13,574 nt of DNA, from positions 1 to 13,574 of the forward strand of contig JAUHWE010000050.1 of NCBI GenBank assembly GCA_030424825.1, in the 5' to 3' direction. The notes under the pieces are model-generated. The model was given only the letters and a program-made list of their open reading frames with translations. It was not told the DNA's origin and searched no databases. Source of the stretch: Verrucomicrobiia bacterium. Its GTDB lineage: Bacteria > Verrucomicrobiota > Verrucomicrobiia > Opitutales > Opitutaceae. Position numbers and translations under genes: made by a program. Numbering within the stretch: the first letter of the stretch is position 1; each line of letters opens with the position of its first letter. Positions 751 through 13,574 of the stretch are shown in pieces.

Positions 751-785
751 GTACCCATGAATAACCTACATAATTGCAGGATAGT

Positions 786-1814
786 ATGAAAGCGCTAGTC
801 AAAACACAGGCAAAGCGGGGACTCTGGCTCGAGGATGTCCCGGAGCCAGAGGTTGGCATTAACGACGTCCTTATCAAAGTTCGAAAAACCGGAATCTGCG
901 GTACGGATCTACATATATACACTTGGGATGAGTGGGCCCGGAAAACAATCCCTGTGCCCATGGTAGTGGGACACGAGTTTGTGGGGGAGGTCGTGAGTGT
1001 AGGATCCAATGTGAACGACTTTCATGTCGGCGAGATTGTCAGTGCCGAAGGCCACGTTGTTTGTGGGCGCTGTCGGAATTGTTTAGCAGGCCGTCGTCAC
1101 CTATGCAAAGACACCGTTGGAATCGGGGTTAATCGACCAGGAGCATTTGCGGAATACATCAGTGTACCGATGACCAACGTATGGCATCATCGCGAGGGCG
1201 TAGACGAGGAGGTGGCCAGCATCTTCGATCCGTTGGGCAATGCGGTGCACACGGCACTGTCGTTTGAACTGCTGGGCGAGGACGTGTTGATAACTGGCGC
1301 AGGACCGATTGGGATCATGGCGATTCCCGTGGCCAAGCATGCAGGCGCGCGGCATGTGGTTATCACCGATGTGAACGAATACCGTCTGGATCTCGCCAAA
1401 AAGATGGGAGCGACCGTTGCTCTGAACGTTAAAACGGGCCGCATTGCTGATTTGCAGGTTAAGCTAGGGATGAAAGAAGGATTTGATATCGGTCTCGAGA
1501 TGAGCGGCAACCCGCGAGCCTTCAGTGAAATGGTCGACAATATGTGCCACGGTGGCAAAATAGCGATGCTCGGAATTCCGAGTGAGAAAATTGACATCGA
1601 CTGGAACAAAGTGATTTTCAATATGCTGACGATAAAGGGAATTTACGGGCGAGAAATGTATGAGACATGGTATCAGATGAGCGTGTTGCTCGAGAGCGGT
1701 ATGAATATAAAGCCTGTCATTACCCATCGACTACACTACACCGAATTTGAGAAAGGATTTGCTGCCATGGAATCGGGCGATTGCGGAAAAGTAGTCCTCG
1801 ATTGGAACGATTGA
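786..1814 (+). CDS. tdh: L-threonine 3-dehydrogenase
   Basis: This zinc-dependent medium-chain dehydrogenase oxidises L-threonine to 2-amino-3-oxobutyrate with NAD+, the first step of threonine breakdown to glycine in the cytoplasm. The 342-residue product matches E. coli Tdh (341 residues, recalled) along its length. Visible landmarks are catalytic zinc ligands Cys38 and His63-Glu64 (motif GHE), structural zinc cysteines 93, 96, 99 and 107, the Rossmann motif GAGPIG at 171-176, and the family stretches TWDEW and IYGREM. I chose the ATG at 786 because AGGA lies 4 bases upstream and because it gives the conserved MKAL N-terminus; an in-frame TTG at 774 would add four residues. It ends 5 bases before kbl, whose enzyme uses the unstable product, so translation is probably coupled. 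Confidence 0.97.
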
Positions 1815-1819
1815 AACTA

Positions 1820-3010
1820 ATGAATTCTGATTTTATAGATCATGCCACGGGGCAACTCGAATCCATTCGAGCGGCCGGAACGTTCAAAAGCGAACGGGTG
1901 ATCATGACGCCGCAAGGTACCATGATCCGTGTTTCGGACGGACAAGAGGTTCTCAATCTTTGTGCCAACAACTATCTAGGTCTCGCTCAGAATCCGGAAA
2001 TTAGACAGGCCTCTCATGACGCTTTGGATACGTGGGGTTACGGACTTGCGAGCGTACGCTTCATCTGTGGCACACAGGGGATTCATAAGGAGTTGGAATC
2101 GAGCTTGAGTGACTTTCTGGAAACGGAGGACACTATTTTGTATTCGTCATGCTTCGACGCCAATGGAGGCCTTTTTGAGACTCTTCTCGGGGCGGAAGAT
2201 GCTATCATCAGCGATGAGCTGAATCACGCGTCCATCATCGATGGAGTACGTCTCTGCAAGGCGAGCCGGTATCGCTACAAGAATTGCGACCTAGCCGATT
2301 TGGAGGCGAAGCTGGCAGAAGCCGATCGAAATGGAGCGCGATTTAAACTGATCGCGACAGACGGCGTTTTTTCCATGGACGGATTTATTGCACCGCTCAA
2401 AGAGATCTGTGATTTGGCTGACCAATACAATGCGCTCGTGATGGTAGACGATTCCCATGCGGTAGGTTTTATGGGGACGCACGGTCAGGGGACCCATGAA
2501 CATTGTGGTGTTGTGGAGCGAATCGACATTCTAACGGGAACCCTTGGAAAAGCCTTGGGAGGCGCCAGTGGCGGTTACACGAGTGGCAGAAAGGAAATCA
2601 TCGAACTGCTTCGCCAACGATCCCGGCCTTATTTGTTCTCCAACACGATGTGTCCCAGCATCGTTGGGGGGTCGATCGCGGCGTTGGAACTGCTCAAGGC
2701 GTCCACTTCATTGCGGGACCAGTTGGAAGCGAATACCCGCTACTTTCGGGAAAAGATGACGTCCGCTGGATTCGATATCGTGCCTGGGGAACATCCGATC
2801 GTCCCCATCATGCTCGGTGAGGCTTCGTTGGCTTCCCGTTTCGCCGATGCGATGCTGGAGCGGGGAATCTACGTTGTTGGCTTTAGTTTCCCCGTCGTCC
2901 CGGAAGGCAAGGCGCGCATACGTACTCAGATCAGCGCTGCCCATACCCGGGTTGAATTGGATAAGGCGGTGAGCGCCTTCGTGGAAACCAAGGCGGCGCT
3001 TGGGATTTAG
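1820..3010 (+). CDS. kbl: Glycine C-acetyltransferase (2-amino-3-ketobutyrate CoA ligase)
   Basis: This PLP enzyme of the alpha-oxoamine synthase family splits 2-amino-3-oxobutyrate with CoA into glycine and acetyl-CoA, completing the pathway begun by Tdh. The product is 396 residues, close to the E. coli length of 398 (recalled). The PLP lysine is Lys244 in [14 protein letters not shown]. The conserved VDDSHAVGF (209-217) contributes Asp210 and His213 to cofactor binding. Other landmarks are ANNYLGLA (49-56), SVRFICGTQ (78-86) and RSRPYLFSN. The ATG at 1820 fits the family N-terminus; the frame is also open about 13 codons further upstream inside tdh, but those residues have no counterpart in the family. 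There is no clear Shine-Dalgarno, which fits coupling to tdh 5 bases upstream. The order is tdh then kbl, the reverse of the E. coli operon. Confidence 0.96.
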
Positions 3011-4640: not shown

Positions 4641-5774
4641 CTAGATCGATGCCAGGGAGGCCTCGGTTATAGGGTCGAAAAGGTGCACGTTCTTTTGATC
4701 GAATGAGACTTTGGTTCGTTGACCCGCTTTGAAAGGGGAGTCGTTCGTTGCGCGTGCTGTGAGAGAGGTGGTTCCATTCGTCAAATGCAGCAATGTTTCA
4801 TTGCCTAAAGGTTCGACCATTTCAATGTCTAGCTCGACAGGTTTTTCTACCTGGGATTTGTCCATTGAGAGCTGAATGTTTTCGGGACGAATCCCGAGTA
4901 TCAGATCTTTGCCTACAAAAGGCTCGGCTTGATGGGCGAGGGCTGGATCTAGCTCGACGTGAATGGCATTCTCGGAATCACTAATCTCTAGAAATTGAAG
5001 TTTCCCTTCTTTCCGCTCGATGCGGCCCTTCACGAAGTTCATAGGGGGATTGCCAATAAATCCGGCTACGAAGAGGTTCGCGGGCTTATTGTAAAGATCG
5101 AGTGGCTGAGCGGTTTGCATGATTTCCCCTTCGTGCATCACGCAAATGCGGTCTCCCATGGTCATCGCTTCAGTCTGGTCGTGCGTTACGTAAATCATGG
5201 TGGCGTTCAGACTGGAGTGGAGCTTGGATATCTCCTTGCGCGTTGAAACACGTGTTTTCGCATCGAGATTTGAAAGCGGCTCGTCGAAAAGGAAAACCTT
5301 GGGCTGGCGAACAATGGCCCGTCCCACCGCTACCCGTTGACGCTATCCTCCGGAGAGCGCTTTGGGGTACCGATTCAAGAGAGTTTCGATTCCGAGTATT
5401 CGAGCCGCTTCCTCGACTCTTTCTTTGATCTCTGGTTTCGGAAGCTTGCGGAGCTTCAACCCGAAGGCGATATTTTCGAATACCGTCATGTGAGGGTAGA
5501 GGGCGTAGTTCTGAAAAACCATGGCGATATCGCGATCTTTCGGCGGCAGGTCGTTAATTATTCGGTCGTCGATCGTGATCGTCCCTTCGCTGATTTCTTC
5601 CAGTCCGGCAATCATGCGGAGTGTGGTTGTCTTTCCGCATCCTGAGGGCCCGACAAGGACCATGAGCTCGTGGTCCCCGATTTCGAGGTCGATTTTCTTC
5701 ACGGCTTCGAAAGGAGGGTTTCTGCCCTTTCCCGGGTAGATTTTCTGAAGACGATTGAGACGAACAGTGGGCAT
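4641..5774 (-). pseudogene. ugpC: Sugar ABC transporter ATP-binding protein (UgpC/MsmK/MalK type), interrupted by an in-frame TAG
   Basis: Read through its one internal stop, this is a full-length 377-codon ATPase of the CUT1 sugar-importer group, the cytoplasmic subunit that powers uptake of oligosaccharides or glycerol phosphate. Walker A is GPSGCGKTT (42-50), the Q-loop Gln is residue 88, Walker B is VFLFDEP (160-166), the D-loop is SNLD and the H-loop His is 198. The C-terminal third has the regulatory OB-fold features of this group, including GIRPENIQLS. Codon 144, at 5343-5345, is TAG. It stands exactly where the Gln of the LSGGQ signature belongs, and the next residues RQRVAVGRAI continue correctly in the same frame. 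A single C-to-T change (CAG to TAG) explains it. Neither half alone could form a working ATPase. No permease or binding-protein gene is adjacent. Alternatives are a sequencing error, a recent null allele or readthrough. Confidence 0.85.
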
Positions 5775-8853: not shown

Positions 8854-10047
8854 ATGAATGTTACCCTAGGCGTAGAAGAATTCCAGGGCCTTTATGGGCC
8901 CTTTCAAGTCAGTGAGTTGGTTCTCCAGAAAATCTGGCTGAAAGGCGCTTTTGATTCCAAGCGATTGTTGGATAGTTGTGGGAGGCCAGTGCGGGTGCTT
9001 TTCCCCGGCCGTTGGAACCGGCTAGCGGGTCCCGATTTTAAAGAGGGCATCCTCGAGATTGACGGGGAAACAGTGGAGGGCGATGTCGAGATCCACTTCT
9101 CGCAAAACGACTGGAAAGCCCACGGCCACCACGAAAATCCCAATTTCGACCGCGTTGTGCTGCACGTCGTCTACCATCCTGTTCGATCGAGGGACGGCGA
9201 GACGATGACGGCTTCCCGGACTGTGGTTCCTACCGTCTCATTGATGGATTTGCTTTGGTACGACTTGGAAGAATACGCGAGCGAAGATTCAATCATCGAG
9301 TCGACGGGAGGCTCCAGTGAAGCGGCGTTTGAGAAACTGTTTGAACAGAGCATCGAGCAGCGGCGAGAGTGCTTGAGAGTCGCGGCACTGGAACGTTGGA
9401 ATATGAAGCAGAAATTTGCCAAGCTCAGGATTGAACGCCTGGGTTGGGTCGAGGCATGTCACATGACGGCCTTGGAAATCATGGGTTATGCGGCCAATCG
9501 CATTCCCATGTTGCACGTCGCTGCCGCCTATCCTGCATTGAAAATGCGACCGAAGCCTCTCGAAGTGGCAAAGCTTTGGGAAGCCGGTCGGGACTTTTGG
9601 ACCACTTCGGGGGTCCGCCCGGCAAATCATCCTAAGATTCGGCTCGAGCAGTTTTGCCGCTGGATTTCTGACCGGCCAGACTGGCATGACTTGCTTCTTT
9701 CATTGGCATCGCGTCTTCCCGCCAATCCGATAGGTGAAGAACGCACAACCGAGTATCGAAAGGCGGTAGGTATCTCGCAGATTCAGGAGATCGTTTCTGA
9801 CAAGATCGTAGGGCGCTCGGTGAGTGGATCCAAGTTGGATACGCTTATTTGTGACGGATTTCTCCCGCTTTTGGCGGCCCAAAGCGGAAGCGACTTCAGT
9901 GGGCTTTGGTTTCACTGGTATGCGGGGAATGTGCCTGAGTATCTAGGAGAGAGCCTTAACAGCTTGAGTGTTCTGGAAACGGGCCGCTTTCCCAAATCGA
10001 ATGGGTGGGTCCAAGGAATGCTGAAAATCAAACATGCGGCGGCATAG
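8854..10047 (+). CDS. DUF2851 family protein
   Basis: The 397-residue product matches the pattern I know for DUF2851, a family of unknown function common in Bacteroidota and Verrucomicrobiota. The N-terminal half carries the diagnostic motifs: PGRWNRLAGPDF (51-62) and GDVEIHFSQNDWKAHGH (76-92), followed by a VVLHVVYH strand. The many acidic and His residues there resemble a nuclease-like active site, but no activity is established to my knowledge. The C-terminal half is helical and has the ALEIMGYAANRIPM segment typical of the family. There is no signal peptide or membrane helix, so it is probably cytoplasmic. GAGGG lies 9 bases before the ATG at 8854. Only 17 bases separate it from the NYN nuclease gene, so the two are probably co-expressed. 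Confidence 0.85.
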   Translation: MNVTLGVEEFQGLYGPFQVSELVLQKIWLKGAFDSKRLLDSCGRPVRVLFPGRWNRLAGPDFKEGILEIDGETVEGDVEIHFSQNDWKAHGHHENPNFDRVVLHVVYHPVRSRDGETMTASRTVVPTVSLMDLLWYDLEEYASEDSIIESTGGSSEAAFEKLFEQSIEQRRECLRVAALERWNMKQKFAKLRIERLGWVEACHMTALEIMGYAANRIPMLHVAAAYPALKMRPKPLEVAKLWEAGRDFWTTSGVRPANHPKIRLEQFCRWISDRPDWHDLLLSLASRLPANPIGEERTTEYRKAVGISQIQEIVSDKIVGRSVSGSKLDTLICDGFLPLLAAQSGSDFSGLWFHWYAGNVPEYLGESLNSLSVLETGRFPKSNGWVQGMLKIKHAAA

Positions 10048-10062: not shown

Positions 10063-10082
10063 GCTGGATTTTCAGCTTTTTT
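10063..10082 (+). terminator. Probable intrinsic terminator after the DUF2851 gene
   Basis: GCTGG (10063-10067) can pair with TCAGC (10072-10076), with one G-T wobble, around an ATTT tetraloop. Six T (10077-10082) follow directly. It lies 16 bases after the DUF2851 stop, the expected place for an operon end. The stem is short, so efficiency may be modest. Confidence 0.45.
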
Positions 10083-10169: not shown

Positions 10170-10198
10170 TTGACTTTTAGAAGGCTGAGAAATTTACT
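10170..10198 (+). promoter_or_regulatory. Likely sigma-70-type promoter of nusA-infB
   Basis: TTGACT (10170-10175) matches the -35 consensus at five of six positions. After an ideal 17-base spacer comes TTTACT (10193-10198), matching the -10 consensus at four of six. Transcription would start near 10205, giving a leader of about 64 bases that contains the hairpin-plus-T-run at 10223-10252. It lies downstream of the terminator that closes the DUF2851 operon, so nusA appears to have its own promoter. Confidence 0.5.
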
Positions 10199-10209
10199 CC
10201 CTGCCTTAA

Positions 10210-10226
10210 TTTTCATTTTATGAAAA
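10210..10226 (+). repeat. AT-rich inverted repeat overlapping the nusA leader terminator
   Basis: TTTTCAT (10210-10216) and ATGAAAA (10220-10226) form a perfect 7-bp stem around a TTT loop. The AAAA at 10223-10226 is also the A-tract that can pair with the T-run of the following terminator, so the two structures compete for these bases. The GC-rich core of the terminator is not shared. Confidence 0.5.
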
Positions 10227-10330
10227 GTGGGTCTTTGACCCGCTTTTTTTTTCATCAGCAAAGCAATCATGAGCAGCGAAATTTTATCCGTATTGGAGTA
10301 CATGGAGAAAGAGAAAGGGATCGGTCGTGA
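10220..10330 (+). other. Possible short upstream ORF across the nusA leader terminator
   Basis: An ATG at 10220 opens a 36-codon frame ending with TGA at 10328-10330. It crosses the whole terminator and overlaps the start of nusA in the +1 frame. The nine-T tract falls exactly on three Phe codons (9-11). A ribosome translating it would unfold the hairpin. There is no Shine-Dalgarno before the ATG and the later codons look arbitrary, so it may be chance. Confidence 0.2.
10223..10252 (+). terminator. Strong intrinsic terminator in the nusA leader (candidate attenuator)
   Basis: GTGGGTC (10227-10233) and GACCCGC (10237-10243) form a 7-bp GC-rich stem with one T-G wobble and a TTT loop. The stem can be extended by A-T pairs from AAAA (10223-10226) into the T-run. 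Nine T (10244-10252) follow. The T-run ends only 16 bases before the nusA ATG, so no normal promoter fits between terminator and gene. It therefore probably works inside the nusA transcript. It could also be a backup stop for the DUF2851 operon, read by nusA transcription as well. Confidence 0.8.
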
Positions 10331-11595: not shown

Positions 11596-13574
11596 ATGAG
11601 CGTACGAATCTATCAGCTTTCCAAAGAGATCGGAATGGACAACGCCGAGCTTCTTGATCTCCTCCGCGAGCGAGGCTTTCAAGTCAAGAGCGCGTCCAGC
11701 ACGGTCGACAATATTTCGGCGGAATCTTTGAAAGAAGAGTTTGCGAATAAATCTGAGGACGCTGCACAAGCGGATTCTCCGGAAGAAGGGGAGTCTAAAG
11801 AAGCAGAAGAGAAGCCGATCGCACCGCCTTCGGCGAGTGCCTTTGTGCGGACCAAGGCTCAGATCGAAGAGGAAAAGGAAGCTGCTAAAGAATCGGCGGC
11901 AGCAAAAGTCGCGGCACCTCCGCCACCTGCTCCAGCACCGGCCGCTCCCAAACCGGTAGCGCCTCAATCGCCCAGTCCATTGCCCCCTCCGGCAGTTGCA
12001 AAGGCACCTACGCCTCCTCCCGTCGCGAGCCCAGCAAACGCGGGTCCCCCGCCACCACCATCTCCGACCCCGGCAGGGCCTCCTCCCATGGCGGCCCCCA
12101 CATCACCGGTTGGGGTTGGCGCTCCGGTCCCTGAAGCGAACAAAGAACCGGCGGCTGAAGAATCTGGAGAGATTCGCACGATCATTTTAAAGCCGCCAAT
12201 CGTGGTGCGCGACTTGGCGACGGAACTTGGGGTGAAGCCTTTCAAGTTGATCTCTGAACTGATGGAGATGGGCATTTTCGCTTCCATCAATCAAAGTTTA
12301 GAAGAGGATGTTGCGAGTAAGATAGCAGAAAAACGAGGTGTAATTCTCGAGATTCGTCATCGTGGTGAAGGCCTGAAGGCGAAGAAGAAAAAGGAAGTTA
12401 AGGAAGTCGATGAATCCGCGCTTCTTGAAGAGCGTCCTCCTGTAGTTTGTATTTTAGGACATGTGGACCATGGTAAGACATCCCTGCTGGATTTTATTCG
12501 CAAGGAGAACGTCGTTTCGTCTGAAGCAGGTGGCATTACTCAGCACATCGGCGCTTATCAAGTGTCGCACAAGAACAAGAAAATCACATTCCTGGATACA
12601 CCGGGTCACGCAGCATTCAATGCAATGCGGGCACGGGGAGCGGATGTGACGGATGTTGCGATTCTAATTGTAGCCGCTGATGACGGATTTATGCCCCAGA
12701 CTGACGAGGCACTGAAATTTATCCAAAAGTCTGGTGTCCAGCCGATTGTCGCGATCAATAAGATAGACACTCCCGGCGCGAATATCGACCGTGTGAAAAC
12801 TCAGATGCAAGAGCGTGGTATTCCCCCGGAAGATTGGGGCGGAGAAACGATTGCGGTTGCGATTTCAGCGCTTAAGGGCGACGGGATCGACGAGCTTCTG
12901 GATATGGTTCAGCTGCAGGCGGAGGTTCTCGAATTAAAGGCGAATCCGAAGAAGTCTGCGGAAGGAGTCGTTATTGAAGGACAGGTCGAAGTCGGACGTG
13001 GCGCTACTGCGACTGTGATTGTACAAGCCGGTACCTTAAAGGTAGGCGATGCGCTCGTATGCGGGCACAACTACACGAAAGTGAAGGCGCTCTTCAACGA
13101 GCACGGCAAGAACATGAAAGTGGCCCCTCCTTCCACCCCCGTGCGAATTATTGGCTGGTCGGGTGTTCCTGATTGTGGGGCGACCTTCCACGCTGCTAAG
13201 AATGAAAAAGCGGCCAAGCGCGAAGCGGAAGAGAATCTGGTAGGGGTTCGGGCGGAACAGAAGGCGGATGCTGAAGACCGGATGCCTACATCCCAGGAAA
13301 AGCTTTTTGCTGCAATCGCAGCGAACCAGAAAAAGACGCTTCGGTTAATCATCAAGGGCGATACTTACGGCTCGGTTGAGGCGATCAAGAATGCTTTGAT
13401 GGAGATCAAGAGTGAGAAGGTAGCGCTGGAGATTGTCCGGTCTGGAATTGGTGTTGTTAGCAAAAGCGACGTGCAAAAGGCGAGTGCGGGTGGCACCGAA
13501 ATTATCGGCTTCAATGTAAAGTCCGAGAATGGTGTTCAAGCCCTGGCAAAGCACCACGCAGTCAAGATTACGCA
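11596..13574 (+). CDS. infB: Translation initiation factor IF-2 (3' end beyond the window)
   Basis: IF-2 is the GTPase that places initiator fMet-tRNA on the ribosome and promotes subunit joining. About 659 codons are present and the frame is open at the window edge, so roughly the last quarter to third is missing. An N-terminal IF2_N-type helical domain opens with [21 protein letters not shown] Pro/Ala-rich linker spans about 105-183. A second IF2_N-like module (around [20 protein letters not shown]) precedes the GTPase domain. G-motifs are GHVDHGKT (288-295), DTPGH (334-338), NKID (388-391) and a G5 [15 protein letters not shown] forms the switch region. Domain II and the start of domain III follow. 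ATG 11596 gives the conserved N-terminus. No Shine-Dalgarno is seen. It lies 67 bases after nusA and is probably co-transcribed with it. Confidence 0.97.

Follow-up and report, generated by a model that had tools for sequence, protein, structure and literature searches.

Why would a gene carry an intrinsic terminator between its promoter and its start codon? The question is raised by the nusA-infB operon of a Verrucomicrobiia bacterium, in a stretch of 13,574 nucleotides which was analysed as a whole and which we call the window. The initial annotation placed a candidate transcription attenuator in the leader of this operon. This proposal is supported by the conservation of promoter, terminator and spacing, by the rarity of the arrangement elsewhere and by the changing neighbours upstream. 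From these comparisons we consider it very probable that positions 10170-10268 are the regulatory leader of nusA-infB and a real transcription attenuator of the rimP-leader kind.

Elements of the leader in the window

The source genome is fragmented into 811 contigs. The closest named relatives are MAGs of Opitutaceae and Opitutales and isolates of Pelagicoccus, with NusA proteins 84-98% identical, and from the titles of these records we place the genome in the order Opitutales of the phylum Verrucomicrobiota. The elements of the leader and the two genes behind it are listed in the table. The open reading frame at the annotated ATG (10269) is indeed NusA, which has matches in 55/57 genomes (own genome counted), and the distance of 16 bases between T-run and ATG is exact. 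The next gene is infB. Two other places in the window deserve mention. On the minus strand, a gene that we take from its sequence to be ABC transporter ATPase-like (4641-5774) is interrupted in its signature motif by an in-frame stop, which may be a sequencing error or the mark of a pseudogene. At 774-3010, a zinc-binding dehydrogenase gene slightly overlaps a gene of the class I/II aminotransferase fold, a pair that presumably resembles threonine dehydrogenase and 2-amino-3-ketobutyrate ligase.

Table. Features of the nusA-infB leader and operon, in window positions.
Feature	Position	Strand	Basis
nusA promoter (predicted), -35 element TTGACT	10170..10175	+	TTGAC conservation in the order
-10 element TTTACT, 17-nt spacer, A2 missing	10193..10198	+	retained in the genus
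Putative start region of transcription, about 7 nt past the -10 element	10205..10206	+	promoter geometry
Possible competing hairpin UUUUCAU-UUU-AUGAAAA; 3' strand overlaps the terminator 5' arm	10210..10226	+	
Intrinsic terminator stem-loop (predicted) GAAAAGUGGGUC-UUU-GACCCGCUUUUU; 5' arm 10222-10233, loop UUU 10234-10236, 3' arm 10237-10248	10222..10248	+	fold, compensatory changes
T-run of nine T; first five T also paired in the stem	10244..10252	+	
16-nt spacer from T-run to nusA ATG, without Shine-Dalgarno-like 4-mer	10253..10268	+	
nusA, 419 aa	10269..11528	+	Pfam NusA_N, KH_5
infB (IF-2), runs past the window end	11596..13574	+	Pfam IF2_N, GTP_EFTU, IF-2

The promoter had been called a good match (10170-10198). 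This was generous, because it agrees with the consensus at 9/12 positions and has T instead of A at position 2 of the -10 element; a strict sigma-70 scan of the window misses it and returns five other sites, fewer than the 9.1 expected by chance. Yet the site is conserved. Both TTGACT and TTTACT are retained in 11/11 leaders of the genus, TTGAC lies 45-80 nt before the terminator stem in 92/93 non-redundant leaders of the order (clustered at 80% identity), and the best -10 element has A2 and T6 in 72/92. We also observed that in the order G is strikingly scarce among the first bases inferred to be transcribed (1-5% G per position at about 36-45 nt past the start of the -35 element). The hairpin holds a second candidate promoter (TTGACC from 10235), which we discarded since the loop varies among the leaders.

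The terminator stem begins 23 nt after the promoter-like site. The strong hairpin and nine-T tract of the initial annotation (10223-10252) were recovered with the stem starting one base earlier and the T-run ending at the same position. The fold of 10205-10252 reaches -15.8 kcal/mol, compared with -4.41 (sd 2.05) in 200 dinucleotide shuffles, of which none was as low. A scan for terminator-like sites in the window lists 20, of which this is the first; shuffles give 15.6, so that taken together the sites show no enrichment. A short open reading frame from the ATG at 10220 was rejected because that ATG is not retained across leaders.

Conservation of the leader and its association with nusA

A first set of 54 leaders, the window included, was drawn from relatives in the genus, the family and the order, and 53 of them have the terminator. 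It was enlarged with the loci of the order from a phylum search and with 80 named loci (NusA 67-98% identical, assigned to the order from identity and record titles), giving 165 loci and 144 distinct leaders. The terminator is found by rule in 141/144. The three misses are one leader without any terminator (L046, also the exception in the first set) and two in which a longer-looped stem is visible by eye (L056 and L057). The stem ends 13 to 62 nt before the ATG (median 23), and the longest T-run has at least seven T in 129/141 leaders. Hence the comparison of related nusA leaders that had been proposed as a check finds hairpin, promoter and spacing conserved.

The helix itself is maintained. 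In an alignment of 36 of the 144 leaders, 95.6% of the cells are paired, and 14 cells carry double-sided compensatory changes, compared with 3.3 in shuffles. At one pair of the stem, 31 of the 36 have a U-G wobble and the other five C-G; searched with a simple expression across the order (n=141), this pair is T-G in 103 leaders, C-G in 13, another pair in 4 and without match in 21. A single transition would turn the conserved U-G into a Watson-Crick pair, which hints that the stem is kept moderately weak in the order. Outside the order, T-A (22) is more frequent than T-G (15) at this position among the 60 leaders in the matches listed.

These 60 leaders, again among the matches listed, were picked for spread of families and comprise 20 from the same class and 40 from other classes. 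With the rule relaxed to 4 of 8 T and 160 nt, 50/60 have the hairpin (17/20 in the same class, 33/40 in the others), and GTGGG or GTGGA stands in the 5' arm of 44/60. By the same rule, shuffled leaders have the hairpin in 9.4% and the GTGGG/GTGGA form in 0.6% of cases, and gene starts of the sister genome G010 in 22/265 and 2/265. Ten of the 60 listed leaders have no hairpin by rule; in one of them, L127, an irregular form can be made out by eye. TTGAC occurs 35-110 nt upstream, mostly near 60, in 31/50 of the listed hairpin leaders, compared with 6.6% in shuffles; in the same class outside the order, this holds for only 6/17 of those listed. By this comparison, promoter, terminator, their spacing and their association with nusA have been kept throughout the order and, less evenly, across the phylum.

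How particular is this arrangement to nusA? As a control we took twenty 20-kb stretches (400 kb) of G010 and the starts of their longest open reading frames of at least 150 aa. One and the same rule, a terminator 10-65 nt before the start, holds for 137/141 nusA leaders and for 2/265 of these starts. One of the two is nusA itself, which leaves 1/264 other starts. The core pattern of the terminator occurs in 39/61 genomes of the family, once in each, and its reversed control in 0/61. In 27 of the 39 it could be placed relative to nusA coordinates, and all 27 are directly upstream of nusA; the other 12 were not placeable, and the remaining 22 genomes hold no exact match.

This rarity also bears on a possible role in translation. 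The T-run is separated from the ATG by 16 nt, and 139/141 leaders of the order lack a Shine-Dalgarno-like 4-mer before nusA (two have one), so one might think of hairpin and T-run as a U-rich ribosome landing site or as shielding the start region of a gene that lacks such a motif. But Shine-Dalgarno-like 4-mers are not enriched at G010 starts in general (42/256 in our sample, 47/256 in a control stretch), such a hairpin is rare at the other starts, and outside the order, among the matches listed, its distance from the start reaches 107 nt. We regard a translational role as highly improbable.

The terminator might instead end transcripts of the upstream gene, a DUF2851 gene with its stop at 10047, and so insulate nusA without any regulatory role. 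In the window that gene shares the strand of nusA, as does the upstream neighbour, by longest open reading frame, in 90/131 leaders. Directly behind it, however, is a weak terminator-like site that includes six T (10063-10076), possibly the end of its transcript, and the conserved promoter stands between the gene and the nusA terminator. Moreover, the upstream genes change. The neighbour is on the opposite strand in 41/131 leaders, some of which look like antisense artefacts, and the seven such neighbours that were checked all match Pfam families (QueC, isopropylmalate/isocitrate dehydrogenase, ABC ATPase, ALAD, GFO/IDH, protein kinase and DEAD helicase). In one Opitutales MAG (L177) a 6S RNA match (2630-2818) lies directly upstream of the nusA leader, within 250 nt of nusA; in another locus (L208) a tRNA does so within the same distance, and four more tRNA matches are found about 900-1,500 nt upstream of nusA. 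The changing neighbours and the seven real genes on the opposite strand argue that the terminator belongs to nusA, and insulation alone is a very unlikely explanation.

Proposed read-through and the factor possibly sensed

In the attenuator that we favour, transcription would start near 10205 and meet the intrinsic terminator after about 48 nt, so that nusA-infB mRNA would come only from polymerases that read through the T-run. A leader of this length seems to leave no room for a ligand sensor or a leader peptide. Transcription of nusA may also start downstream of the terminator, which is conceivable because leaderless starts were reported in Akkermansia, where they make up 10% of start sites according to an excerpt of that report.

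Promoter and terminator together make a complete short unit, and the terminated RNA of about 48 nt might itself be a functional small RNA. Conservation falls mostly on the promoter, the terminator and a TCACTTT stretch able to pair with the terminator arm, and at gathering score Rfam matches neither the window nor the leader in 20 relatives (searched with E up to 10, the window gives chance-like matches only). Of the explanations weighed here, this is the one that we least expect to hold.

The attenuator reading leaves the level of read-through to be explained. NusA favours hairpin pausing and intrinsic termination, which is established and is described in a review (PMC12288461); more NusA would thus be expected to bring more stopping. 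A higher level of NusA would stop a larger fraction of polymerases at the leader, and NusA and IF-2 would thereby hold their own level. The autoregulation of B. subtilis nusA by attenuation, mentioned in the initial annotation, is reported in the same review; there, NusA stimulates an intrinsic terminator of the 5' leader and so controls how far transcription proceeds into the gene. In E. coli, NusA represses the operon, according to excerpts of PMC2965389. By analogy with these two species and with S. agalactiae, NusA is probably the factor sensed here, though we hold this with less assurance than the attenuator itself.

The attenuator might also respond to IF-2, a ribosomal protein, NusG, the speed of the polymerase or the level of NTPs. 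This is compatible with the attenuator part of our explanation, and it is the sensed factor that would differ. We consider it possible but rather unlikely, given the reports on NusA in B. subtilis and E. coli, and the leader stays on nusA where RimP is not found. The annotation had remarked that no rimP precedes nusA; this was borne out and extends further. The RimP_N profile matches in 0/38 relatives and in 0/115 genomes of the phylum, and the C-terminal domain of RimP (DUF150_C) in 0/29 relatives (own genome counted in each), whereas each of the two models was found in 10/14 control genomes (DUF150_C over the cut-off in eight). A highly diverged RimP could escape these models. A loss of this ribosome maturation factor throughout the phylum is possible. 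The position of the leader directly on nusA, with RimP not found, speaks for NusA rather than RimP as the factor involved.

A second element might take part in the decision. A hairpin at the 5' end could compete with the terminator for its 5' arm. In the window it is weak (-4.7 kcal/mol for 10205-10236, z -1.73, 18/200 shuffles as low). In many leaders an upstream strand, e.g. UCACUUU, can pair with AAAGUGG of the terminator 5' arm, and strands of the same leader pair more stably than strands swapped between leaders (permutation z -5.7 and -4.3), in permutations that do not remove the relatedness among leaders. Among 45 disjoint pairs of nearest relatives, the own pairing was better in 25, worse in 11 and equal in 9 (p 0.024), or in 23, 15 and 7 when GGG was left out (p 0.032). 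A contiguous helix of at least 6 pairs is present in 53/91 leaders, compared with 46% of swapped and 22% of shuffled ones (helix score z 3.8). Against its own dinucleotide shuffles, the competing helix reaches p <= 0.05 in only 12/93 leaders, and in a fixed register the hairpin shows no covariation (75.9% paired, 76.1% in shuffles). Tentatively, a weak 5' hairpin that shares the terminator 5' arm may set the level of read-through.

One might go further and speculate that in Verrucomicrobiota the rimP-leader has turned into a stand-alone gauge of NusA, in which the 5'-end hairpin and the terminator compete for one arm, held weak in the order by the conserved U-G pair, and NusA-controlled pausing alone decides between stop and read-through. 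We find this doubtful. Being so short, the leader lends itself to experiments on how NusA gauges its own abundance.

Known leaders of the nusA-infB operon

The idea of an attenuator at this operon is already published; the Verrucomicrobiota leader differs in standing directly on nusA. The rimP-leader was described in 2010 by Naville and Gautheret (PMC2965389) and called, in the consulted parts of that paper, the most ubiquitous transcription attenuator; both RimP and NusA are considered there as regulator, with NusA as the best candidate. Verrucomicrobia are not named in its main text. A literature search, thin on subscription journals, found nothing on this leader in Verrucomicrobiota, and the excerpts of PMC8060035, PMC3814617 and PMC4782308 hold nothing on it.

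According to the excerpts of PMC2965389, the rimP-leader shares with the window a short terminator with a G-rich 5' arm, a C-rich 3' arm and a T-run, placed in the leader of the nusA/infB operon. Its distance to the gene is 4-130 nt there and 16 nt from T-run to ATG here. The stem core is GGGc(...)gCCC in the rimP-leader and GGGUC..GACCC in the window. Among the 141 leaders of the order, 70 have the strict GGGc(...)gCCC, 36 the form of the window, GGGt(...)rCCC, 11 a near form and 24 none; among the 60 listed outside the order, the numbers are 3, 18, 1 and 38. The general form of the rimP-leader has no antiterminator in these excerpts, whereas a weak competing hairpin is possible in the window. 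Finally, the first gene is rimP there and nusA here. An intrinsic terminator does stand ahead of nusA and infB in the 5' leader of their operon, and rimP is not its first gene; we therefore call the leader one of rimP-leader type, on nusA. The gammaproteobacterial rimP leader of Rfam (RF01770) belongs to the same operon and, like the window, is a leader with a terminator. The window scores 13.9 bits with this model, whose gathering cut-off is 47; nothing in the own genome or at the loci of 20 relatives is over the cut-off, and 1/14 controls is.

In the consulted parts of PMC4448216, the rimP operon leader of S. agalactiae yields a short RNA with the terminator 31 nt after the start, and negative feedback by NusA is proposed, as we propose for the window, but rimP is in the operon and the phylum is another. 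Attenuation at the B. subtilis nusA leader is shown by experiment in the excerpts of PMC12288461, whereas for the window we infer it. Compared with these systems, a leader that stands on nusA with no RimP found offers a natural separation of the two candidate regulators, and it argues for NusA.
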